From positions 1-64,000 of the forward strand of contig NZ_CALEMI010000126.1 of the NCBI RefSeq assembly GCF_937910895.1: DNA of 64,000 bases, read 5' to 3'. Origin of the DNA: an uncultured Dokdonia sp. GTDB lineage: Bacteria; Bacteroidota; Bacteroidia; Flavobacteriales; Flavobacteriaceae. Below, piece by piece: positions 46,978-58,478 of this stretch. Below the pieces are notes generated by a model, which was not told the DNA's origin, did not search any database, and saw only the letters and a list, made by a program, of their open reading frames with translations. A program made the translations under genes and the position numbers. Each line of letters opens with the position of its first letter. Position 1 is the first letter of the stretch.

Positions 46978-47268
46978 CTATTTCTTAAATACTTTTTTAG
47001 CAAGATGTGATAAAAGTGCTACTTCTCCATTCATCAATGCCTCTTTTTTCTTTCGACTCCATCCTTGTACTTGTTTTTCTCGATAAAAAGCATGGTCAAT
47101 ACGGTCATATTCCTCATAATATAATAGTGATACGGGAAGTCGCTTTTTGGTATGTATTGCTCCATTTCCTTGTTGATGTTCTTCAAATCTGCGCTCTATA
47201 TATTTTGTGCTACCTGTATAATACGTATTGTCATTACATTTAAGAATATACATATAGCCTTTTATCAT
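46978..47268 (-). CDS. Single-domain GIY-YIG nuclease (UPF0213/YhbQ-like)
   Basis: 96 residues, essentially one GIY-YIG domain. It begins MIKGYMYILKCNDNTYYTGST, in which the GIY and YIG triplets appear as YMY and YTG, followed by the catalytic Arg (ERRFEEH, ~28), KRLPVSLLYYEEY and the metal-binding Glu region (HAFYREKQVQGWSRKKKEAL). Such proteins are candidate endonucleases with no fixed biological role. The gene is enclosed by composite repeats: its stop codon is the last codon of one unit, and another unit starts about 20 bp upstream of its ATG. A role in moving or processing those repeats is an inference. Confidence 0.88.
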   Translation of the reverse strand: MIKGYMYILKCNDNTYYTGSTKYIERRFEEHQQGNGAIHTKKRLPVSLLYYEEYDRIDHAFYREKQVQGWSRKKKEALMNGEVALLSHLAKKVFKK

Positions 47269-47889: not shown

Positions 47890-48513
47890 TTATAAATCAA
47901 AACCCACTTGCCAAAAATACATATCTATTAATTTCATAATTGGATATTGAGGATATAGTGTTTGTATCTCTTTAAGTTCCTCATTATGAATACCTACATA
48001 ATCAAATAGTGAATTTATACTTTTTTCTTTTAAGTTTTTAAATTCTTGATCACTTTTTTTTACACCTTTTATAAAAAGCCTGTCAAAGGCTGGGAGACAC
48101 CCTAACGTTCCTAAAAGTATTTTGCTTATTAGTGTATCTGTAGATGTAATATTTCTTGATTTATTTTTTGAAGTTATGTATTGAAATGACTCATAATATT
48201 CCTTAAGGTGTTTAATAATTTCCACTATTTCTGTAATACAAGAAACATCTACTTCATTGTTTTTCGAACACCTTAACTCAGGATATTTGCCTATAATTTC
48301 AACAGTCTCAATATGGATTTTGTAATCTTTCTGAAGTAATCCACTAGAGCCACGATACATACCCCAACTAGCAAGATAAAACCCAAGGTGTAATGCCAAA
48401 ATGTCCTTACTTAACTTAGTATTTCCAAAAGCTACATAACAATGATTCCAAGAGTTATAACGCTGAAATTCTTGATTATTATTGTCTATATATTTTTGAA
48501 TTATTTCTTTCAA
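47890..48513 (-). CDS. Third gene of a Septu-like module, unknown family
   Basis: 207 residues with no signal peptide or membrane segment. The composition is mixed alpha-helical, with a notable conserved-looking patch LALHLGFYLASWGMYRGSSG (~39-58) followed by LLQKDYKIHIETVEII. A later helix LGCLPAFDRLFIKG stands out. I do not recognise a named domain. Its start codon overlaps the end of the HNH gene by 4 bp, so expression is coupled to the ATPase-HNH pair. It could be an accessory, sensor or toxin subunit; this is inference from position only. Confidence 0.85.
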   Translation of the reverse strand: MKEIIQKYIDNNNQEFQRYNSWNHCYVAFGNTKLSKDILALHLGFYLASWGMYRGSSGLLQKDYKIHIETVEIIGKYPELRCSKNNEVDVSCITEIVEIIKHLKEYYESFQYITSKNKSRNITSTDTLISKILLGTLGCLPAFDRLFIKGVKKSDQEFKNLKEKSINSLFDYVGIHNEELKEIQTLYPQYPIMKLIDMYFWQVGFDL

Positions 48514-49478
48514 ATTAAATCCAAATCTTTAGCGACATCCATCATTAATTTACTCATAGGTCTTTTATGTAAATCTTTTTCTTCGATATAATTTCCTATT
48601 AAAGCTCTCTTAAATAATTCAGGATTTAATGATAGTTCTTGAAAATTAGATTTCAATATTTTTAAATAAGATCTATTATACATTTGAGCCTTAACAAATA
48701 ACTCTTCAATTACATCTTTTTGAGTTTCATACAATCCTTCAATGTGAAAAACATCTTTAAATGTTTTTGCATCTTTATTCTTATATTCTGGTTCTATAAA
48801 AGCTATCTTGATATCTCTCTCTTTTTTTGTGAGTAAGTAATTTGCCTTTGAATATGGTGTTAGTTTAAACTCATAATCAGATTTAAGAGTTTCAGAGACT
48901 ACATCCGTATATAGATTAAATTCGATAACCTCATTACTCTTTGCCCTGTTACAAGAAGTACAAGAAGGATACAGATTAAACAAACAAATACTTAAAAAAG
49001 GATATTCATCTTTAGAGTGATAGTGATCTACATCAAACTTAGCTGAATATTCTCCTTTAGACTTTATAGCTGTTATTGTAAGTTGAGAGTTACAATACAC
49101 ACAGGCTTTTATACCAATATCTTTAAAATATTCAGGATAAAAAGAATCTCTTAAAGCTTTATAACCTAATTTATCTAAAACTGCATTTTTTATTGAGCTT
49201 TTAACTTTTTTTGGCCTGCCTTTATATAGTTTTTCAATGAGTGGAACTTCTCCTATCTTATCTTTCTCATTATTCAATTTAGTAGAGTCCCAAAGTAATA
49301 TATCTGTATTATCGTTAAATAAAGATATAATACTCTCTAAATATACTTTATCATCTCCATCATCTATCTCATTATTTAAAGTCTTCAATTTCTTAATAGC
49401 TTTCTCCCTTTGCTTTTTTATATCATCTGAGAAAATGACTTGAATAGCTTTTACTTTATTTTGATCAATAGCTATCAT
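48510..49478 (-). CDS. HNH endonuclease (PtuB-like) of a Septu-like defence module
   Basis: 322 residues. A zinc-bound HNH core: CVYC (126-129), FDVDHYHSK (D151-H152), LYPSCTSCNRAKSN (C173, C176, N177), so two CxxC zinc pairs and the DH catalytic pair are present. The N-terminal ~115 residues are helical and Lys-rich; the C-terminal ~130 are helical. PtuB HNH proteins act with an ATPase partner, here the upstream gene, overlapping by 4 bp. The role would be cleavage of phage or host nucleic acid on sensing infection. Family assignment is by architecture, not by an alignment. Confidence 0.88.
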   Translation of the reverse strand: MIAIDQNKVKAIQVIFSDDIKKQREKAIKKLKTLNNEIDDGDDKVYLESIISLFNDNTDILLWDSTKLNNEKDKIGEVPLIEKLYKGRPKKVKSSIKNAVLDKLGYKALRDSFYPEYFKDIGIKACVYCNSQLTITAIKSKGEYSAKFDVDHYHSKDEYPFLSICLFNLYPSCTSCNRAKSNEVIEFNLYTDVVSETLKSDYEFKLTPYSKANYLLTKKERDIKIAFIEPEYKNKDAKTFKDVFHIEGLYETQKDVIEELFVKAQMYNRSYLKILKSNFQELSLNPELFKRALIGNYIEEKDLHKRPMSKLMMDVAKDLDLI

Positions 49479-51703
49479 TTCTCTATTAAGTTTTTAAGTC
49501 TTCCTATTTGCTCTTTTATAAATTCTTCTTTTTTTGACTTATATGCCTCAACATACAATTCCATTAAACTCATTGATAATAAAGGTTCTCCAATAGTTTC
49601 AATAATACTTTTACAATAATCTTGGTCATAATTCTTTTCGTAAAGAGGATGTAAATCTCTTAATTTTGAAGTAATATCATTCAGCTGGTCTTTTAACTTT
49701 ATTTTATCTGAATCTTTAGTGGAGCTCTTTAAAAGTTTTTCTTTTTCAAGTTTTTCATTAGTTAAGATTGCATATTGTAATGAATCAACTACTCTCTTTA
49801 TCTCAATTTTAGCAAACTCACCCATAAATCCATTTTCTAAAAAGAAATCATTTGCCAATAAGTCATGTATGTTAGCTCCAAATGTTTGTTGTGTAATTGT
49901 TTGAACTGCTCCATTATTTAGTCTTAAAATATTTGAAGAAGGGATATCTGATAGAATAAAAGGAGAATGGGTCGCTATTAACACATTAATGGACTTAATA
50001 TTTCCTTTAAAATATTTCCTTAATTGATCAATACCTTTAAGTAATCTATTAACAAAATGCCGTTGCATTTCTGGATGAAAGTATAACTCAATCTCATCTA
50101 ACATAATATTAATATTATTATACTTACCTAAGATTGTAGACTTTTTAATTGAGGAAACATTACGAAGATGATACATTATAGTATGTATAGAATATATCTG
50201 CTGTTTTTCTCCCGAACTTAAATTCTCAAATGTATCGTTTGGTTTCTCAGAAAAATGAAAATCATAATCAAAAACTGGAGGAGGTAAAAAATTAATTTGC
50301 TCAAGTGGCTCTTCTACTTGATTAGAATATACACCATCTCTCAAGCTATCTTTCTCATTTATTATATTTATCACAATGTCAGGGTCTTCTCTAAATGAAT
50401 ATCCATCCATTCCCTCTCCATATGCATCTTTAATTAGCTCTGGCTTATGTTCTTCACATTTAGTTTTTATGAAATTATCATGATTAATAAAATGAATAAC
50501 TTGTTTCAATTTATAAGTAACATGACTATCATAGCTTTCTATTTTTTTTAGATTTAATTCATAATCATCTTCATTAAAAATTTTAGGATAATTTTTAACT
50601 ATACGACTAGTCTTATATAATAGATAACCATATACTTCCTTCTCTATCCAAGAGCACAATTCATATTCTTTTAATTTAAATATTTCTTGATGCTGAGTGA
50701 TTTCATACTTAAGCCTTTCATTAACATTATCGTACGCAGCATCTATTAAAGTAATATCTAAAAGCAAATCCTGTAACCCTTTAAATCTGGTCTTATAATT
50801 ATCATATTTATACTTAAAAACAATTTTTTTTATTTTTTTATAATTAAATAAAGGATCGTTTTCATCAGTACTGTTACTCATAATATCCATAGTATTTACT
50901 AACAGCCTTGCCTTTTGCAGCCCTCTTTCATTATCAATATCAATAGATCCTTCTTCTCTTTTCGGATTGATTACTAATGGAGTTTGATACCCATCATTTT
51001 TATGAAAAATACTTTCAAGCCATACTCCCATATCTACAGTATTTAATGAGTGTATGGAGTAATTTAAAGCAATAGTATAAAAAGGAGTACGTCCTAGATA
51101 TTCATAAGGTTCGAACTTACCATCATTTAACCTTTCTATCCGATACCAGTTTATAGCATCCTTGAGATTTGTATCTATAAAAAATTTATAAATGTTTTTA
51201 TCTATTTTATAGAATATCTCTAAATGTACTCTTTCCTTATTAAATAGTTTTACACCTCTAAAAAATCGTTGTATACGACCATCAGCGTGCACTTTATTTC
51301 TCTCTAAGATTGTATTAAAAGTGTAACTAGGCTCTATATCAATACCAGGTTCTTCTACATTTTTTTTATGTTGAATAATATTCTTATAATCCCATAAATA
51401 AATAGCTAGAAAAAATAATTCTATCAGTGTACTTTTTCCGCTTCCGTTCTTTCCTACAATAGCCGAGATATGAATTTTCAGGTCGTCATTACTAGAAAAA
51501 ATATCAATTTCATTTTCAGGTTTTTTTATCTTAAAAATGCGATCATTAATATTTTGATTTGAATGTGATATCTCATTGTCTTCCTCATCTAAAAAAATAT
51601 AATCTCCATAAAATTTATAGACCTCCCCCTCCTGTAAATTCTTCCTAAACCTATCCGCACATCCCTTTAAAGGACGTATCCCCAACAACTTAAACCTACC
51701 CAT
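49475..51703 (-). CDS. AAA15/SMC-like ATPase (PtuA-like) of a Septu-like module
   Basis: 742 residues. ABC-type ATPase: Walker A GKNGSGKS (84-91), a long helical middle (~110-470), signature LSSGEKQ (495-501), Walker B NIMLDEIELYFHPEMQR (D536, E537) and H-loop IATHSPFILSDIP (H579). A further ~130-residue charged helical C-terminus follows the ATPase core, making it longer than typical PtuA proteins as I know them. The middle insertion probably forms a coiled-coil-like arm. It overlaps the HNH gene by 4 bp and starts 50 bp after the T5orf172 gene, so the whole island may be one transcript. Confidence 0.9.
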   Translation of the reverse strand: MGRFKLLGIRPLKGCADRFRKNLQEGEVYKFYGDYIFLDEEDNEISHSNQNINDRIFKIKKPENEIDIFSSNDDLKIHISAIVGKNGSGKSTLIELFFLAIYLWDYKNIIQHKKNVEEPGIDIEPSYTFNTILERNKVHADGRIQRFFRGVKLFNKERVHLEIFYKIDKNIYKFFIDTNLKDAINWYRIERLNDGKFEPYEYLGRTPFYTIALNYSIHSLNTVDMGVWLESIFHKNDGYQTPLVINPKREEGSIDIDNERGLQKARLLVNTMDIMSNSTDENDPLFNYKKIKKIVFKYKYDNYKTRFKGLQDLLLDITLIDAAYDNVNERLKYEITQHQEIFKLKEYELCSWIEKEVYGYLLYKTSRIVKNYPKIFNEDDYELNLKKIESYDSHVTYKLKQVIHFINHDNFIKTKCEEHKPELIKDAYGEGMDGYSFREDPDIVINIINEKDSLRDGVYSNQVEEPLEQINFLPPPVFDYDFHFSEKPNDTFENLSSGEKQQIYSIHTIMYHLRNVSSIKKSTILGKYNNINIMLDEIELYFHPEMQRHFVNRLLKGIDQLRKYFKGNIKSINVLIATHSPFILSDIPSSNILRLNNGAVQTITQQTFGANIHDLLANDFFLENGFMGEFAKIEIKRVVDSLQYAILTNEKLEKEKLLKSSTKDSDKIKLKDQLNDITSKLRDLHPLYEKNYDQDYCKSIIETIGEPLLSMSLMELYVEAYKSKKEEFIKEQIGRLKNLIEK

Positions 51704-51753: not shown

Positions 51754-52965
51754 TTATTTCTTAATCAAACACACATTACCACTATCATAGCTATACTCTA
51801 CAATCTCACCCGACTGAATTAAAGAAATGACGCTCTCAATGATAGGCAAAGGCACCACAAACCATTCTCTGGGCGTTATTCTTCTACCCTTCTCATCATT
51901 TATATCAATATTTAAGCAGACTTCTGCAAAAAAGCGATGTATTAGGTGTTCAAATTTTTGGGTATTCATATTGTAGCATTTATACCCATTTACAATTTTA
52001 ACATCTGCCATTAAATAGGTAGATTCCTTAGAAGCATTTTTTATCCGTTCTTGAACAGGAACCGTTGAAAAGCCAATTTTATACAAGTTTTCTATAGACG
52101 AGATTTTAGGGTTTAGAGATTTTGATTTTAGTATATAAATCCAACCTGTTTCTTGATCTTCTTCATTAAGAGAATATACGTTATCAAATAATTCCTGTTC
52201 AATTTCTGCTGCGGTATGTGACACAATTTTACCATCATTCTCTTTATTTAGAAGCGCTTTGTCTAATGAACGATACAACATATTACTCATCGTTCCATTT
52301 TCAAAAATAATACGTGTACGCCCATCTTTACGGAGTCTTTTGCCAGAAGAAAGTGTCACATTATCAGTTTCAAGATTAGCTTCTTCTAAAAACAACAAAA
52401 CCCCATTTAAAATATAATACGACCCTGATTTTAAATTCTTATCTGCATTCTCATAGGTGAACAAATTCCTTTTCCCTTCTCTCAATTCTTTATGAACTTT
52501 CTTAAACATCTTTTCATAAGGTAAAAACTCCGTATCCTTGATCGCTTTACGTTGCGCCACAAAATCAGTATCAGCCCTTTCTGATGAACTTGGCACGTTC
52601 TTTAATTTAAAAATAGATAAGGTTTCTTCAGTATCTAAGATGTTTAAATCATCGTCATTTAAGATATCAGCGACAGAGGTTATTTCTTCTTTTGTATGTA
52701 AAAGATTATGAGTGTCGTGGGGCTTTAGTATCTCCATCTTTTTAGCATCTTTTCTGAGTGCTTTTAGTCTTGACAGGAGTTTAAACTCAGTAACAGAAGT
52801 TGCTTCTGGTTCTCTATTATTTTTCTCAAAAAAGGCATTAATCTCTTGGAACGATTCAATTAAGCGTTCATCTTCTGTTTTTATAGTAGAGCTCTTGGGT
52901 TTAGCATCTAAAATACCAAACTCATCATCATTAAATATATCTTCTAATGTTTTCTTTTTACTCAT
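51754..52965 (-). CDS. T5orf172/MUG113-type GIY-YIG protein with disordered N-terminus
   Basis: 403 residues. The C-terminal ~110 residues hold a GIY-YIG superfamily domain: GWIYILK (~274-280), LYKIGFS (~294-300), VQERIKN with the catalytic Arg (R307), KFEHLIHRFF with the metal-binding Glu (E339) and REWF (366-369). Residues ~185-245 form a small beta domain. Residues 1-~130 are acidic and disorder-prone and contain a duplicated linear motif: DIFNDDEFGILD (9-20) and DILNDDDLNILD (100-111). It overlaps the helicase gene by 8 bp. It is the likely nuclease of a helicase-methyltransferase system. Confidence 0.88.
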   Translation of the reverse strand: MSKKKTLEDIFNDDEFGILDAKPKSSTIKTEDERLIESFQEINAFFEKNNREPEATSVTEFKLLSRLKALRKDAKKMEILKPHDTHNLLHTKEEITSVADILNDDDLNILDTEETLSIFKLKNVPSSSERADTDFVAQRKAIKDTEFLPYEKMFKKVHKELREGKRNLFTYENADKNLKSGSYYILNGVLLFLEEANLETDNVTLSSGKRLRKDGRTRIIFENGTMSNMLYRSLDKALLNKENDGKIVSHTAAEIEQELFDNVYSLNEEDQETGWIYILKSKSLNPKISSIENLYKIGFSTVPVQERIKNASKESTYLMADVKIVNGYKCYNMNTQKFEHLIHRFFAEVCLNIDINDEKGRRITPREWFVVPLPIIESVISLIQSGEIVEYSYDSGNVCLIKK

Positions 52966-54901
52966 TAGTTGCTGCTTTGCGCTTTTGTTCTTTTAAAAAT
53001 ATGATCGCTTCTGCTAAACGTCTTTCTTGCGGATCAAAAGCTTGAATACTTGGCTGCTCTCCTGTTTTTGTGATCCAGTTTTTTATTTTAGGCCACAATA
53101 TAATTGCTTCTTCTTCTGTCATGGTGATTCTTGTAGCATCAATGGTTTCCTGAATGGCTTTAAATACTGATGCTGTTACTGATTTAGATAAGATCTCAAA
53201 TGCTTTTTGAAATGGATTGATCGTGTCTATTAAATCGATGTTCAATTCGTCAATATTAACAAAACCAGCAGCATACCGTATAAAACGTTTATCTCCAACC
53301 TCTTCAATAGTACCATTTTTCACGACTGAATCTACCACAATATGCTGTCGTACCGCTTCTACTTCTTCATCGGTTAAGTCTGGATAGGTTTCTTTTATGA
53401 TTTTAGGAATCAATACTTTATTAATGACTTCTGGGTCTACATTCCCTGGCATGGCCTTCAACATCGTGTCATCTTGCATAATTTTTGCCTTCAAATCATT
53501 GATGTCACTTTCTATAATATCTTTTGCTCTTTGAGAGCTTGGCAATTTAAAACCTCTTACAGTTATATAATCCGCTCCATCTTCTTCAACACCATCTACC
53601 TCATCTTCTTCTGGGTATTTAGGCTTAAACTTAAAGTTAGGTGCCAACACTTGCTCCATTAATAAGGAGGCAGTAATAGCCTTGAGCATATTGTTTACAG
53701 ATAGTTTTACTAAATCATCTTCGGCATCGGGTTGTGCAATTAAATTGGTAAACTGTGAATGCGATTTATTATCACTATCTCTTGTGGCTCTACCTATAAT
53801 TTGAATAATTTCTGTTAAAGATCCTCTATAACCAACCGTTAAAGCGTGCTCACAATAAGGCCAATCAAATCCTTCTTTTGCCATACCTAAAGCGATGATA
53901 ATATCTATATCATCTACACTGGTAATGTTCCGCAAATAATTCTGAATCTTATCACGTGATTTAGGATCATCATACACGAGGTCTGCTATTTTTATTTGCT
54001 TTCGCGAAAGCGTACTCGTTACATATATCACCCCAGTATCAGGATCTTGATAACTTTCCTTCCCTATACCATCTATAATTCTACCTACTTCTTCATATTT
54101 ATCTTTTTCAGATTCGCCTGAATTTACGCTGGGGATATGAATGATCGTTTTTTTATTCTCATCCAATACCTCGTGAATAGCCGCTGTATATTTACCTTGA
54201 TAAAAATGATAGCCTATCCCTAAAGATTTTAAATAATCATACCCATTTAATTGTTGGTAATAATCATACTTCACTTTGATGAACTTAGCCTCGTCTTCTG
54301 GCAATAAAATAGGCACAGAATCTCCTCTAAAAAAAGAACCTGTCATCGCCACTACGTGCGCCGTAGATTTTTCCATGACGCTACTTAAAACCATTCCTAA
54401 CTTATTATCACCATCTACAGATACGTGATGAAACTCATCTATGGCTAACAGACACTCATTGAGTTGTTTTTCATCTATAGCATCAAAAGCAAAACGTAAG
54501 GTAGCGTGTGTACAGATGAGTATTTTTTCATCACTTTCTAAAAAGTTTAAAAATGCAGTTACTTTGCTTTTTTCAACACCTGGGGTACACAAATTATATC
54601 TTGGATTGGGTTCCCAATCTGCAAAAAAACCAAACTTCTTGAGCTCTGTTTTAGAAAACGAACTCCCAATAGAGCGTTCTGGAACAGCCACAATTACTTT
54701 TTTTATGTCTTGGTTTATTAACTTATCTAAACCAATAAACATTAAGGCGCGTGATTTACCAGACGCTGGTGGTGCTTTAATTAACAGATATTGAGCCGTA
54801 CGCGCCTCAAATGCTTTTTGTTGCATTTCGCGCATACCATACGCATTGGTACTTTTGCTTTTTCCTGTTTGTTGGTAGGTGACGTGTACGATATCTGGCA
54901 T
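52958..54901 (-). CDS. SF2 DExH helicase of a restriction-like system
   Basis: 647 residues. Motif I PPASGKSRAL (~45-54), motif II LLAIDEFHHVS (DEFH box), motif III MTGSFFRG, motif V/VI ALGMAKEGFDWP and QIIGRATRD. After the two RecA-like domains comes a ~200-residue C-terminal helical region. The organisation resembles translocase subunits of type I/III restriction enzymes but without a fused nuclease, so cleavage would need a partner. The T5orf172 gene overlaps its end. A palindrome copy encodes TLSRKQ between motifs III and V. Confidence 0.92.
   Translation of the reverse strand: MPDIVHVTYQQTGKSKSTNAYGMREMQQKAFEARTAQYLLIKAPPASGKSRALMFIGLDKLINQDIKKVIVAVPERSIGSSFSKTELKKFGFFADWEPNPRYNLCTPGVEKSKVTAFLNFLESDEKILICTHATLRFAFDAIDEKQLNECLLAIDEFHHVSVDGDNKLGMVLSSVMEKSTAHVVAMTGSFFRGDSVPILLPEDEAKFIKVKYDYYQQLNGYDYLKSLGIGYHFYQGKYTAAIHEVLDENKKTIIHIPSVNSGESEKDKYEEVGRIIDGIGKESYQDPDTGVIYVTSTLSRKQIKIADLVYDDPKSRDKIQNYLRNITSVDDIDIIIALGMAKEGFDWPYCEHALTVGYRGSLTEIIQIIGRATRDSDNKSHSQFTNLIAQPDAEDDLVKLSVNNMLKAITASLLMEQVLAPNFKFKPKYPEEDEVDGVEEDGADYITVRGFKLPSSQRAKDIIESDINDLKAKIMQDDTMLKAMPGNVDPEVINKVLIPKIIKETYPDLTDEEVEAVRQHIVVDSVVKNGTIEEVGDKRFIRYAAGFVNIDELNIDLIDTINPFQKAFEILSKSVTASVFKAIQETIDATRITMTEEEAIILWPKIKNWITKTGEQPSIQAFDPQERRLAEAIIFLKEQKRKAATNE
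53998..54012. repeat. 15-bp palindrome inside the helicase gene
   Basis: GCTTTCGCGAAAGCG, read as Leu-Ser-Arg-Lys-Gln in a linker. It is the first copy after a gap of about 7.4 kb covering the Septu-like genes. Confidence 0.9.
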
Positions 54902-54906
54902 TCTAT

Positions 54907-55345
54907 TTAATTGTTAATGTAACTTGTTACGTTTTCATGTCGGGATTTCCGACCTACTGAATCTTCCTCTAATTCTTTACGCTCAAAAGGTTTTTTAAAT
55001 GCGCTGTAATCGTAGAGCATCTTTTTGGAACAACTCGAATCTTTTTTGAGTACCCCAAAAGGTCTTGTCTTTAAAATATACATCAATGTGCATCAATGTG
55101 CATAATGCCATCTCCTGCATTAAAGGTAACAACGTTGTTTTCTTCGTTTTGTATTTAGATTTAACCCATTTAAATATTTTTATGTTGTCATCTCTTATAC
55201 CAATATAGCCATAAAATGACGCATTCAAACTCGTTCTATTTTCTTGTTCATAATTTCCGTAGCGGAGCTATGCAAATGAATCACAGCGGCATAAAACAAA
55301 AAAGCAACTTCGTTTTCTGTGGGATATTTTATAACTAAATTGGTA
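54907..55345 (-). pseudogene. Frameshifted gene remnant upstream of the helicase
   Basis: Three overlapping reading frames cover this stretch without one intact gene. A 5' frame reads VIKYPTENEVAFLFYAAV before a stop; the next reads NASFYGYIGIRDDNIKIF and MQEMALCTLM; the last reads SAFKKPFERKELEEDS and ends in a TAA 5 bp before the helicase ATG. A direct 10-bp duplication (CATCAATGTG twice, 55081-55100) lies where the second frame should pass into the third. Removing one copy fuses MALCTLM to YILKTRPFGVL in one frame. The family is unknown. Its position just ahead of the helicase argues it was once an operon gene. Confidence 0.6.
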
Positions 55346-55648
55346 TTATTCAAATTCCCTGACGCATTTTTCAAACAAATCATTCCATTGTGGATTTATA
55401 CTTTCTATTAGTGCTATTTTTTGAGCTCTGCTACCCCCTTTTAATTGCTTTTCTCTGGCAATGGCATCACCAATCATTTGGTAGGCTTCATAATATACTA
55501 GTTTGTTTAAATTGTAACGCGCTGTAAATGATCTTTTGTTTACTTTTTCTTTATGCTGAATAATACGCTCTTTTAAATATGCCGTTACACCAATGTATAA
55601 TGTGGTATTGTTTTTATTGGTGAGTATGTATATAAAACCTGGTTTCAT
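55346..55648 (-). CDS. Second single-domain GIY-YIG nuclease
   Basis: 100 residues. GFIYILTNKNNTTLYIGVT carries the GIY and YIG triplets as FIY and YIG; the catalytic Arg lies in LKERIIQHK (~27), and the metal-binding Glu region is GDAIAREKQLKGGSR. It has the same architecture as the gene at 46978-47268 but is clearly a different subfamily. It interrupts the methyltransferase-helicase operon and lies 8 bp from an inverted repeat of the GTCATTGCGAGG family. It looks like an insertion accompanied by its repeat rather than a functional part of the restriction system. Confidence 0.9.
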   Translation of the reverse strand: MKPGFIYILTNKNNTTLYIGVTAYLKERIIQHKEKVNKRSFTARYNLNKLVYYEAYQMIGDAIAREKQLKGGSRAQKIALIESINPQWNDLFEKCVREFE

Positions 55649-55656
55649 AGTTGTGT

Positions 55657-55759
55657 GTCATTGCGAGGCGTCATCCTTTTACTGTCATTGCGAGGTACGA
55701 AGCAATCTGTTTATGGTTTGTTACTCTTTTCATGAGACTGCTTCGTGCCTCGCAGTGAC
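55657..55759. repeat. GTCATTGCGAGG-type palindromic repeat
   Basis: A partial unit (55657-55676) is followed by a full inverted repeat: left arm 55684-55708 (GTCATTGCGAGG then ACGAAGCAATCT), right arm 55735-55759 (TGCTTCGTGCC then CGCAGTGAC), with ~26 bp between. About 19 of 21 terminal positions pair. It fills the gap between the methyltransferase stop codon and the GIY-YIG start codon. Confidence 0.88.
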
Positions 55760-55760
55760 G

Positions 55761-58478
55761 TTATCCTTTTTTGGTTTTACGTGTCTTCTTTGGCTTTTCT
55801 AGCAAGGTGTTTTTTGTAATCATCTTTTCATATTCCTTAAATAAATATTCTAAACGCTCTGTATCACTCTCAAAAGGTTTTAACCTGTAACAACGCTCTA
55901 TTGCCAGGTCTAATTGATGATGCGCTTCTTTCAATCCTTTAGGCATTTTATCTGGATCATATAATTGTGCCAACGTTTTTCCAGAATGCTTTTCTCTTTC
56001 TTCTAATATTTCAAAAACGTGTAAGTTGATTTGTTCTTTTTGCTTTCGCGAAATTTCAGGGAATGGGAAGGTGTTGTAGCACAATTGAGAAGAATATCTA
56101 TAATCTGATTTTAATCTTCCACCAACCGCCCGAACCCAAACCATATGAATTCTTGAAGAAACTAAACCAAAAATCCAAGGTTGTCCATTATATATAGCTT
56201 GTGCAGAATCGGAAATAACCGAACTATCGTCCAAAAATCCAATTGGAATATATTCCCTTCTCTCTGAGGAAACTCTTGGTAATATGATAGAATTACCTGC
56301 TCTATGCCTAATTTCAGCAAATTTGAATGGTTTATCAGCAAGAGATCGAGTAGCCATTTTTGAACTAGCTATTCGCATTTGTTTTACTTTTTCAACCCTT
56401 AATGAGATATATTTAGACTCTAAGGCTAAAGACAAATTTTCCTCACTTATCCATAAACAGAACCTCTCTTCATCTCTAATGTATTCTTTTGCTCCGTAAT
56501 ATTTTTTTAATAACAATTCTGCTTTAGGGAATTGTCCTAGCAAATCTTCTTTTTCCCTTTTATTTAATAATAGATTTCCTCCATCAGTAGGCCCACTTCC
56601 TTTTGTCATCTCTGGTAATACAGACAAAGGAGTTTGTCGCTTATAGACAATTACATTATTGCCATGTGCTAAATAAGGTGTGATATTACTAACCTCAACT
56701 TTATGATTTTCCTCAAATAAATACTTTCCTTTTTTTAATCCAGCACGTTTAAGACCTACAATTACTATTATTACACCAGCGTTCCCTTTTGCATTGTTGT
56801 TCCACTTAAATGAATTATATGCAAAGTTAATGTCAACTCCACAATTGAATAAATGTGGCCATAAAAGGGAAACATGTTCTCCTTGACAAATCGAGTTGGT
56901 TGAAACGAACGCCATCTGACTTTTCGTATTAGAGATATATTTGGCGCCTTTATAAAACCAACATGAAATGTAATCAAGGCTTTTGAAGTTTTTTATTCCA
57001 CAGAAAACTAAAGCGATATCTTCTTTTTGTAATTTTTCTTGTAAAGAATATCCCAAATAAGGCGGATTTCCTAAAATATAAATTTCATCATCTTCATTTT
57101 TAGGACAAGTATCTTCCCAATTTAGGCGTGTCGCATTGCCTTGTGTAATATTACCTGCTTCTTTTAAAGGTAAAATGTCTTCTGCTTTACCATAATCTTG
57201 TAACTCGCTCACAAACTCTTTGTTCATTTGGTGTTCTGCCAGCCATAAAGATAATATGGCCATTTCATGTGCAAAATCATCTAGCTCAATCCCATAAAAT
57301 TGAGAGAGTTTAATTTTAGTATATACATCTGGAAATCCTAAATTTAATTGATGAGTAATTTCATAGATTCTTGACAGAATCTTAATCTCCAAACGTCGCA
57401 ATTGTTTGTAGGCAATAATTAAAAAATTACCACTCCCACAAGCTGGGTCAAACACTTTAATTTTTGCAATTCTATTGATGAGTTTGGTTAGTTTTTTTAC
57501 ATCATTAAAATGCTTTTCAAATTCTTCGTGTAGTTCATTTAAAAACAAAGGCTCAATGACCTTCATAATATTAGGCACAGAGGTATAATGCATCCCCAAA
57601 CCACTACGATACTTAGGGTTTACAACCGCCTGTATCATAGAACCAAAAATATCTGGATTGATCTCGCTCCAATCTAAATCGCCACAGGCAATAATTATTT
57701 TACGTGCTGCTGCGGTAAACTTGGGGGATACAATGGGATCTCTAAATAAACCGCCATTTACATACGGAAATTCCTTAAAATGGGAGGCTTCTTTACTAGT
57801 GTCTTCTATATTTAGAACTTCAAAAAGTTGATCTAAAAAGACATGAACGTCAGAACCATCTTCTTCGGTATATTGCGCTAAGGTATCTGTAAACATTCCT
57901 TCAATGGGAAAGATGTCGGTGTCTTCTGCAAAAAAGCAAAAGAGTAACCGAGAGAGAAAGATGTTTAAATTATGACCACCATCCTCATAGATATTTGGGT
58001 TTTCAGTAACCAAAATATCGTAAAGCTTCGCCATTTCGTAGGATGCTTTTCTATCGGCATAATTCTCGTTTTTTTGAGCATATTTTTCTTGCCCTGCCCA
58101 AGGTAAAAAGAAACCAAAGTGTTTATGAATCTCGAGAATAGGCGTATCTAATGTTAAACCTGTTCTTATATCTTTTGCTAATAAAGTTTTATAATCTGTG
58201 ACAATGACAAATCGTGGATTGTGTTTTATAGCATCTGGCTCTTTTGTTAACTCATCAATCGTATTTAGTAAGGTGCCAGATGCTACTTCTTTAAAAAGCA
58301 TTTTACTTTTATAAAGTACTTCCCCATCCACTTTAGATAGGTTAAAATCCCCTTTCTTTAAACGTGTTATAGATGTTTTAGAGATACCGTAGGCTTTCAA
58401 TAAGTCGAATACAAATTCCTCTTTATTGAAATTTTTAACTAAAGCGGTTACGTTTTTTTCTATTTGGGATGTGTTCAT
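55761..58478 (-). CDS. MmeI-like N6-adenine DNA methyltransferase without obvious nuclease motif
   Basis: 905 residues. Order resembles type IIG MmeI proteins: N-terminal domain (~1-105), helical spacer (~115-250, with EDGGHNLNIFLSRLLFCFF), methyltransferase (~280-560; motif I VFDPACGSGNFL 342-353, motif IV ILGNPPYLGYS with NPPY 471-474), target recognition region (~600-790) and C-terminal helical domain (HSGKTLAQLYDPDKMP). It methylates adenine at N6. At the place of the MmeI D-x9-ExK nuclease signature the text is GEVLYKSKMLFKEVASG, where neither spacing nor residues fit, so I judge nuclease activity absent. That leaves cleavage to partner genes. The tail is lysine-rich. A palindrome fragment codes for ISRKQK. 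Confidence 0.9.
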   Translation of the reverse strand: MNTSQIEKNVTALVKNFNKEEFVFDLLKAYGISKTSITRLKKGDFNLSKVDGEVLYKSKMLFKEVASGTLLNTIDELTKEPDAIKHNPRFVIVTDYKTLLAKDIRTGLTLDTPILEIHKHFGFFLPWAGQEKYAQKNENYADRKASYEMAKLYDILVTENPNIYEDGGHNLNIFLSRLLFCFFAEDTDIFPIEGMFTDTLAQYTEEDGSDVHVFLDQLFEVLNIEDTSKEASHFKEFPYVNGGLFRDPIVSPKFTAAARKIIIACGDLDWSEINPDIFGSMIQAVVNPKYRSGLGMHYTSVPNIMKVIEPLFLNELHEEFEKHFNDVKKLTKLINRIAKIKVFDPACGSGNFLIIAYKQLRRLEIKILSRIYEITHQLNLGFPDVYTKIKLSQFYGIELDDFAHEMAILSLWLAEHQMNKEFVSELQDYGKAEDILPLKEAGNITQGNATRLNWEDTCPKNEDDEIYILGNPPYLGYSLQEKLQKEDIALVFCGIKNFKSLDYISCWFYKGAKYISNTKSQMAFVSTNSICQGEHVSLLWPHLFNCGVDINFAYNSFKWNNNAKGNAGVIIVIVGLKRAGLKKGKYLFEENHKVEVSNITPYLAHGNNVIVYKRQTPLSVLPEMTKGSGPTDGGNLLLNKREKEDLLGQFPKAELLLKKYYGAKEYIRDEERFCLWISEENLSLALESKYISLRVEKVKQMRIASSKMATRSLADKPFKFAEIRHRAGNSIILPRVSSERREYIPIGFLDDSSVISDSAQAIYNGQPWIFGLVSSRIHMVWVRAVGGRLKSDYRYSSQLCYNTFPFPEISRKQKEQINLHVFEILEEREKHSGKTLAQLYDPDKMPKGLKEAHHQLDLAIERCYRLKPFESDTERLEYLFKEYEKMITKNTLLEKPKKTRKTKKG
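56042..56053. repeat. Partial palindrome inside the methyltransferase gene
   Basis: GCTTTCGCGAAA read as Ile-Ser-Arg-Lys-Gln after the FPFPE segment. Confidence 0.8.

Follow-up and report, generated by a model that had tools for sequence, protein, structure and literature searches.

The closest described system comes from Bacillus subtilis, in which two reports (PMC9973331, PMC7261158) describe a methyltransferase gene, dnmA (yeeA), followed by yeeB and yeeC, a set that is suggested there to be Type I-like. The same reports relate that Morgan and colleagues noted MmeI homologues without nuclease motifs beside genes of the yeeB and yeeC types, and they present a survey in which YeeB- and YeeC-like proteins are the neighbours of DnmA at positions 1 and 2 downstream. 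We analysed a 64,000-nucleotide stretch of an uncultured Dokdonia sp. (assembly GCF_937910895.1, a 4.8-Mb draft; contig NZ_CALEMI010000126.1, positions 1 to 64,000; hereafter the window), which carries such a set of genes at 51754–58478. Judged from its sequence, this locus is a flavobacterial copy of the known, little-studied dnmA-yeeB-yeeC kind, so that its layout, which an earlier sequence-only reading of the window did not equate with a named type, is already known. On the evidence below we consider it probable that DnmA, YeeB and YeeC work as a Type I-like restriction system assembled from other parts, which attacks unmodified DNA.

Gene order and recurrence of the locus

The three core genes are all open and lie on the minus strand, where the list of open reading frames (ORFs) gives the transcription order methyltransferase, helicase, GIY-YIG gene, just as the sequence-only reading had placed them. 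The first encodes a DnmA-like (MmeI-family) N6-adenine DNA methyltransferase of 905 amino acids (aa; 55761–58478), assigned by Pfam, PADLOC and a structural relative; the second a YeeB-like superfamily 2 (SF2) helicase/translocase of 647 aa (52958–54901), assigned by Pfam and its motifs; and the third a YeeC-like protein of 403 aa (51754–52965), whose C-terminal T5orf172/GIY-YIG domain is supported by Pfam and invariant residues. The helicase and YeeC-like genes overlap by 8 bases, and a restriction-like division of labour is thus spread over three separate genes rather than one polypeptide, as had been proposed. All elements of the B. subtilis set, namely a nuclease-motif-less MmeI-like methyltransferase, then an SF2 helicase, then a T5orf172/GIY-YIG gene, are present in the window, which differs in carrying an 859-base insert between genes 1 and 2 (54902–55760, on the same strand); this spacer, absent from the sequence-only reading, contains a 100-aa GIY-YIG gene, a pair of palindromes and a RhuM remnant, and corresponds to a cargo slot of the family. 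The likeness to B. subtilis is by description; the nearest Bacillus locus compared, that of B. mediterraneensis (L076), shares 63% identity in the helicase, 50% in the methyltransferase and 38% in the GIY-YIG protein, and an MmeI_Mtase family match is present in the B. subtilis control genome.

A profile built from 14 helicases recovered at least 523 confirmed relatives in named genomes, of which the best 80, hence near relatives, were analysed. The GIY-YIG gene lies downstream of the helicase in 79 of these 80 loci, and in the remaining one the contig ends there; the methyltransferase lies upstream in 70. In nine of the ten loci without an upstream methyltransferase, the contig ends no more than 2.5 kb before the helicase. 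The tenth (L056) is a variant in which the methyltransferase is found downstream of the GIY-YIG gene; its contig has just 1.2 kb of sequence ahead of the helicase, so that a second, upstream copy is conceivable. Further, the helicase/GIY-YIG junction measures at most 140 bases in 99 of the 102 loci with a GIY-YIG match, the exceptions being 322, 427 and 464 bases, the first of them an upper bound from a partial match. The linkage of the three genes, on whose recurrence in other genomes the sequence-only reading depended, is therefore real and general.

The family reaches well beyond the Bacteroidota. Record titles of helicase relatives name Bacteroidota, Pseudomonadota, Actinomycetota, Bacillota, Cyanobacteria, Planctomycetes and one archaeal assembly, keeping in mind that many are metagenome assemblies whose labels may err. 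The GIY-YIG protein matches 230 plasmid records, 185 of them over at least 80% of its length (14 of the 230 regions, picked by hand, were opened), and phage records gave three partial helicase matches. At the search sensitivity used, a helicase match was found in 9 of 5426 Escherichia coli genomes, and both E. coli regions that were opened show the order methyltransferase, helicase, GIY-YIG gene. Closer to the source the GIY-YIG protein found no match at an expectation value (E) of 0.001 among the genomes of 98 other relatives, and the helicase, at E 1e-40, is present in 9 of 395 Bacteroidota genomes, the source genome counted, a patchy distribution of the kind seen for acquired genes.

The methyltransferase, its N-terminal domain and its partners

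All five Pfam MmeI domains were matched in the methyltransferase in the order found in MmeI (N-terminal, helical spacer, methyltransferase, recognition, C-terminal). It scores 1026 bits against the PADLOC Type IIG family REase_MTase_IIG and 608.8 bits against the MmeI structure 5hr4, its sole solved sequence relative at E 0.001, and the MmeI-like architecture ascribed to it from sequence inspection is hereby upheld. The likeness to MmeI (Type IIL) consists of homology over the methyltransferase, recognition and C-terminal domains and, apparently, of the same base-contact code; the differences are that the window protein has no active D...ExK nuclease and that helicase and nuclease are encoded by separate genes.

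The absence of an intact nuclease site, which the sequence-only reading had proposed, holds across the family. Although the N-terminal 157 residues are matched by Pfam MmeI_N, none of 66 family members, the window included, has an acidic residue at positions equivalent to 60, 61 or 62 of the window protein, the candidate equivalents of MmeI Glu80; the Glu of the E-x-K motif has accordingly been lost. Position 63 is commonly basic (K in 49 and R in 9 of the 66), position 51 is D or E in 35, and a loose [DE]-x-K just beyond the strand of positions 60–62 occurs in five, the window not among them. The predicted structure of residues 1–320 (mean predicted local distance difference test score, pLDDT, 84.7; predicted template modelling score, pTM, 0.52) has a strand pair at the presumed catalytic site. 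Fold matches of residues 2–136 are weak, with BpuSI and the EcoR124I subunit HsdR at Z-scores of 4.3–5.2. The ranking below MmeI also contains DrdV and several restriction-like proteins, which with BpuSI and EcoR124I HsdR fall at Z 4–7, a range shared by unrelated folds; Foldseek returned no match below E 0.001 other than MmeI, and several intervening rows are unrelated enzymes. Based on the homology to MmeI, the order of secondary-structure elements and the several restriction enzymes near the top of the ranking, we suggest that the N-terminus probably keeps a nuclease-like fold that has lost its catalytic acid. The modelling and comparison with MmeI called for earlier thus bear out the lack of an intact site and point to a nuclease-like domain that is probably present and dead. 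Moreover, residues 1–160 are 77–95% identical among close relatives in steps of 40 residues, so that a role in binding is probable for this domain. Elsewhere in the source genome, a 949-aa open frame gives another, distant match to MmeI_Mtase (C153:11953-12543, L106; 61.4 bits).

Parts of the methyltransferase are also hit by the models of DrmMI, at 110.6 bits, and PglX, at no more than 30.7 bits, which would fit an exclusion mechanism of the BREX or DISARM kind, in which a DnmA-directed helicase blocks the replication of unmodified DNA without cutting it and the GIY-YIG protein is structural or acts in processing. Among the families listed for the seven proteins scanned (the first 25 for three of them), however, there is no other BREX or DISARM core protein (DrmA, DrmB, DrmC, BrxB, BrxC or PglZ), and the key GIY-YIG residues described below are invariant, so we regard this as the least probable of the explanations considered.

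The helicase gave Pfam matches to DEAD and ResIII above the cut-off and to Helicase_C just below it, and contains the motifs PPASGKS (at residue 44), DEFH (155), MTGS (186) and QIIGRATR (367). No nuclease domain was detected in it by Pfam at E 0.1, in agreement with the earlier description of an SF2 helicase without a fused nuclease, and profiles of solved structures yielded two weak matches only (E 0.004). The YeeC-like protein is matched by T5orf172 (50.2 bits) and MUG113 (56.2 bits), and its residues Y277, K296, G298, R307, E339 and H343 are invariant in 85 of 85 sequences; the GIY-YIG Arg and Glu noted in the window copy are therefore retained throughout. In three loci the YeeC-like protein is split into two ORFs near one place, at profile positions 91–92/96 (L002, Morganella; L015, Acinetobacter wuhouensis; L086, Acinetobacter modestus), and in a fourth (L072) at positions 110/119.

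The long N-terminal part of the YeeC-like protein leaves room for a domain that reads modified bases, and its middle (residues 168–249) gave weak matches to domain I of EF-P (best Z 5.1). These features would suit a system in which the GIY-YIG protein and helicase attack foreign modified DNA while the methyltransferase only marks. A Pfam scan of the operon proteins found no modified-base reader domain, and a methyltransferase stands alongside the pair in 70 of the 80 best loci. In Type IV systems an accompanying conserved methyltransferase is not expected, and the window pair has one. We therefore consider modification-dependent restriction very unlikely.

Recognition-domain exchange and a probable Type I-like mechanism

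Evidence on the mechanism comes from the three nearest relatives, those of Galbibacter orientalis (L016), a Leeuwenhoekiella assembly (L017) and a Bacteroidetes assembly (L018). The window helicase is 87–88% and the GIY-YIG protein 72–80% identical to theirs, and the methyltransferase is a mosaic, with 82–90% identity over residues 1–300, 61–69% over residues 301–590, 43–47% over the recognition domain (600–810) and 89–95% over the C-terminus. The base-contact signature differs in each of the four copies, and among 73 methyltransferases 60 distinct nine-residue signatures were counted. Restriction systems typically switch specificity rapidly in this way while the motor stays the same, and such a pattern fits poorly with a methyltransferase whose regulatory role is fixed. 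We found no earlier report of this recognition-domain exchange in the open-licence literature, which is not proof of absence.

Correlations between MmeI contact residues and the bases of the sequence read have been published (PMC4833311), and this code seems to carry over to the present family: a K-D or E-R pair occupies MmeI positions 806/808 in 57 of the 73 methyltransferases and an R-D pair positions 751/773 in 19. With the window residues K642, G645, E738, R751, D773, S774, K806, D808 and R810 (MmeI numbering), the predicted site is 5'-N(G/R)G(R)AG-3', in which the A of base 5 would receive the methyl group; the assignments at 3, 5 and 6 are firmer than those at 2 and 4. Base 6 is predicted to be G from the K-D pair at 806/808 and base 3 to be G from the R-D pair at 751/773; base 4 is probably a purine, because R810 is combined with a small residue at 774, where Ser extends the published Ala case; base 2 would be G or a purine owing to K642, with the Gly at 645 lying outside the published correlations; and base 1 is left open as N. 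The predicted site departs from the GACGAG of B. subtilis DnmA at base 3 and perhaps elsewhere.

When the window copy is set against the same three relatives, nonsynonymous divergence (dN) is 0.076–0.086 for the helicase, 0.144–0.202 for the GIY-YIG gene and 0.212–0.241 for the methyltransferase, and synonymous divergence (dS) is at least 1.1 or saturated; all three genes are thus under purifying selection. These values bear directly on the view, reached for B. subtilis, that the cluster is an orphan gene-regulating methyltransferase beside two relic genes. The B. subtilis phenotypes and the decayed slot of the window speak for it, whereas the open and selected genes, the exchange of recognition domains among close relatives with its many distinct signatures, unlike what is expected of a fixed regulatory target, and a GIY-YIG gene that has stayed next to the helicase in 79 of the 80 loci, which were selected on helicase similarity, speak against it. 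Taken together, we consider a relic unlikely, more seriously though it deserves to be entertained than the two alternatives above.

Several observations weigh against a working restriction system. As reported in PMC9973331 and PMC7261158, deletion of yeeB or yeeC in B. subtilis left phage infection unchanged in the tests made there, deletion of dnmA left DNA uptake unchanged, and phage genomes do not avoid the DnmA site; the authors judge the set to be a relic. Selection measured between genera does not prove that the window copy is active, and the damage to its slot, judged from the sequence, may mean that the helicase and GIY-YIG genes are expressed less strongly. The pattern of Bacteroidota promoters occurs 6 times in the window against 4.19 expected, and not at all in the spacer. 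Fold searches with the YeeC-like protein gave weak matches, with no GIY-YIG structure among those listed, and solved-structure profiles gave none up to E 0.1, so that the call of a GIY-YIG nuclease rests on Pfam and the invariant residues. On the other side, PMC9973331 mentions, at second hand, that Vibrio crassostreae became more sensitive to certain phages when its dnmA or yeeB homologue was deleted. Although members of the family are found very widely, the best-studied one in the literature consulted has been judged a relic. Two findings, namely that near relatives exchange their recognition domains and that the cargo slot holds accessory genes known from restriction operons, argue for an active defence function in many members, which can be tested directly in laboratory strains.

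The sequence-only reading had proposed modification-dependent restriction, and we do not favour this, since the pair is accompanied by a family-conserved methyltransferase whose recognition domain is rapidly exchanged, which fits self-protection and attack on unmodified DNA better. For the Type I-like system that we prefer, we infer complex formation, translocation, cleavage and restriction of unmodified DNA along the following lines. DnmA would read a short asymmetric site and methylate one adenine on host DNA, by which the host would be protected. At an unmethylated site DnmA would stay bound and hand over to YeeB through its catalytically dead, nuclease-like N-terminal domain; YeeB would then travel along the DNA using ATP, and YeeC would cut it with its GIY-YIG domain. 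Because the predicted site is asymmetric, with only one strand methylated, two opposed sites would probably be needed to spare newly replicated host DNA, by analogy with MmeI and the Type ISP enzymes (PMC3874165).

Such a system resembles Type I enzymes (HsdRMS, for example EcoprrI) in uniting methylation, recognition, an ATP-driven motor and a nuclease, and differs from them in that recognition is fused to the methyltransferase without a separate HsdS, that motor and nuclease are, by Pfam, separate proteins, and that the nuclease is of the GIY-YIG and not the PD-(D/E)XK type. With Type ISP enzymes it shares an asymmetric site and the combination of translocase, methyltransferase and nuclease (PMC3874165), these being one polypeptide there and three genes here.

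Cargo slot, a probable inserted element and neighbouring genes

The spacer between methyltransferase and helicase was compared across 85 loci with an upstream methyltransferase. These are the window, whose own copies (L001, L096) were dropped, 70 of the 80 loci from genomes, 11 of the 14 opened plasmid regions and, out of a further 8 loci whose flanks extend just 1.5 kb, another 3. Of the 85 gaps, 47 measure no more than 104 bases and the other 38 range from 526 to 4370 bases. By Pfam scans of 20 representatives (four without a family) and BLAST clustering for the rest, 12 of the 38 long gaps hold RhuM or a RhuM fragment, 10 AlbA_2/HATPase (both kinds occur together in one locus) and 5 Fic. 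The contents of the remaining 12 are of other kinds or not clear: toxin–antitoxin genes of the HigBA or RelE type, an insertion sequence element, unassigned or doubtful ORFs, and gaps without an ORF of 60 aa or with a short one only. An AAA_15 ATPase occupies the slot of L061, and a PrrC-like ATPase, so labelled from a Pfam AAA_13 match, stands beside RhuM in that of L025. Within these loci, homologues of the RhuM and AlbA_2 queries are confined to the slot, or lie upstream of the helicase where the locus ends before the methyltransferase; Fic homologues occur in four places outside the slot as well, in the same loci.

The four nearest copies each differ in content: one has a 171-aa ORF, one an AlbA_2 gene and one (L018) is empty, and the slot of the window has the RhuM remnant with the small GIY-YIG gene. 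This remnant (54981–55139, minus strand) is broken, with only the N-terminal part left and the frame disrupted; its best match, to the RhuM of L020, has E 3.6e-6 over 25 residues, and a longer, frame-broken match has E 1.5e-4 to 0.002. On a FastTree helicase tree (long-branch warnings for L013 and L014; 11 of 94 rows left out as unlabelled; the window labelled RhuM by its remnant), five cargo labels require 27 changes against a shuffled mean of 34.9, a value as low being reached in 0 of 200 shuffles. RhuM alone requires 10 changes, 8 of them forced by well-supported branches (shuffles as low, 53 of 500), and AlbA_2 alone 9 (45 of 500). By these counts, whether a locus has cargo at all is in part inherited, and the type of cargo is frequently swapped. 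We found no earlier report of the slot in the open-licence literature, which, again, does not prove absence.

Accessory genes of the PrrC, RhuM and Fic types are known from restriction operons, including those of Type I systems such as EcoprrI (PMC3710099 and PMC3874165), and their occupation of one fixed place in this family strengthens the Type I comparison. Our findings also point to RhuM and AlbA_2 as accessory genes beside restriction enzymes. Tentatively, and with more doubt than belief, one may go further and see here a distinct, active, three-subunit type of ATP-dependent restriction, in which the dead nuclease domain would dock the helicase and the GIY-YIG cutter, and the slot would carry a second line of interchangeable effectors (RhuM, AlbA_2/HATPase, Fic, PrrC-like), called upon once restriction has been overcome, as PrrC does for EcoprrI.

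The small GIY-YIG gene of the spacer (55346–55648, minus strand; ORF list and Pfam) encodes 100 aa and lies beside two palindromic repeats, CATTGCGAGGTACGAAGCAATC at 55686–55707 (plus strand) and a second in inverted orientation with a clear CGTC tag at 55736–55757 (minus strand). It was rejected as a core part, with no homologue at E 0.001 in the other gaps longer than 60 bases (84 loci), and is probably an inserted element outside the core system. Its homologues elsewhere often have palindromes adjacent. At 29 loci of Bacteroidota homologues, the 150-base flanks (8.7 kb in all) contain the 8-mer TTGCGAGG or its complement 32 times, spread over 18 loci and present on both sides in 9, whereas 52.2 kb of more distant sequence contain it 5 times; the mean over shuffles is 0.14, and a reversed control gave 2 near and 0 far. 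The full CGTC tag gives a weaker contrast, 13 near (9 loci) against 15 far. At 23 loci of the class to which a Pelagibacteraceae genome belongs, TTGCGAGG occurs 5 times near (4 loci) against once in 41.4 kb, and ATTGCGAG 8 times near (4 loci) against once far; short loci were omitted from these counts (1 of 30 in Bacteroidota, 7 of 30 in the other class). The palindrome CATTGCGAGGNACGAAGCAATC, with one mismatch allowed, is found in 34 of 395 Bacteroidota genomes, with up to 230 copies per genome, and its reversed control in none of the rows listed for these genomes. Of 30 copies sampled, 28 lie more than 1.5 kb from any such GIY-YIG gene; the window supplies one of the two exceptions. A second small GIY-YIG gene, of 96 aa, lies at 46978–47268, the palindrome not being near it.

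Downstream of the operon, a further defence-like set (47890–51703) comprises an AAA ATPase (49475–51703), an HNH protein (48510–49478) and a 207-aa ORF that has no Pfam or PADLOC match. The best PADLOC matches of the ATPase and HNH protein are PDC-M62A/B, the Septu PtuA/PtuB models matching as well. As parts of the system this pair was rejected in view of that best match and because, over loci L002–L104, the window's own copies apart, an ATPase homologue was found only in L026 and an HNH homologue in none. The set lies in the lowest-GC (guanine plus cytosine) part of the window, GC content being 34–35% across the helicase and methyltransferase, 27–29% just downstream (48–52 kb) and 32–43% in the first 48 kb, so that the low GC is confined mostly to this neighbour and not to the operon.

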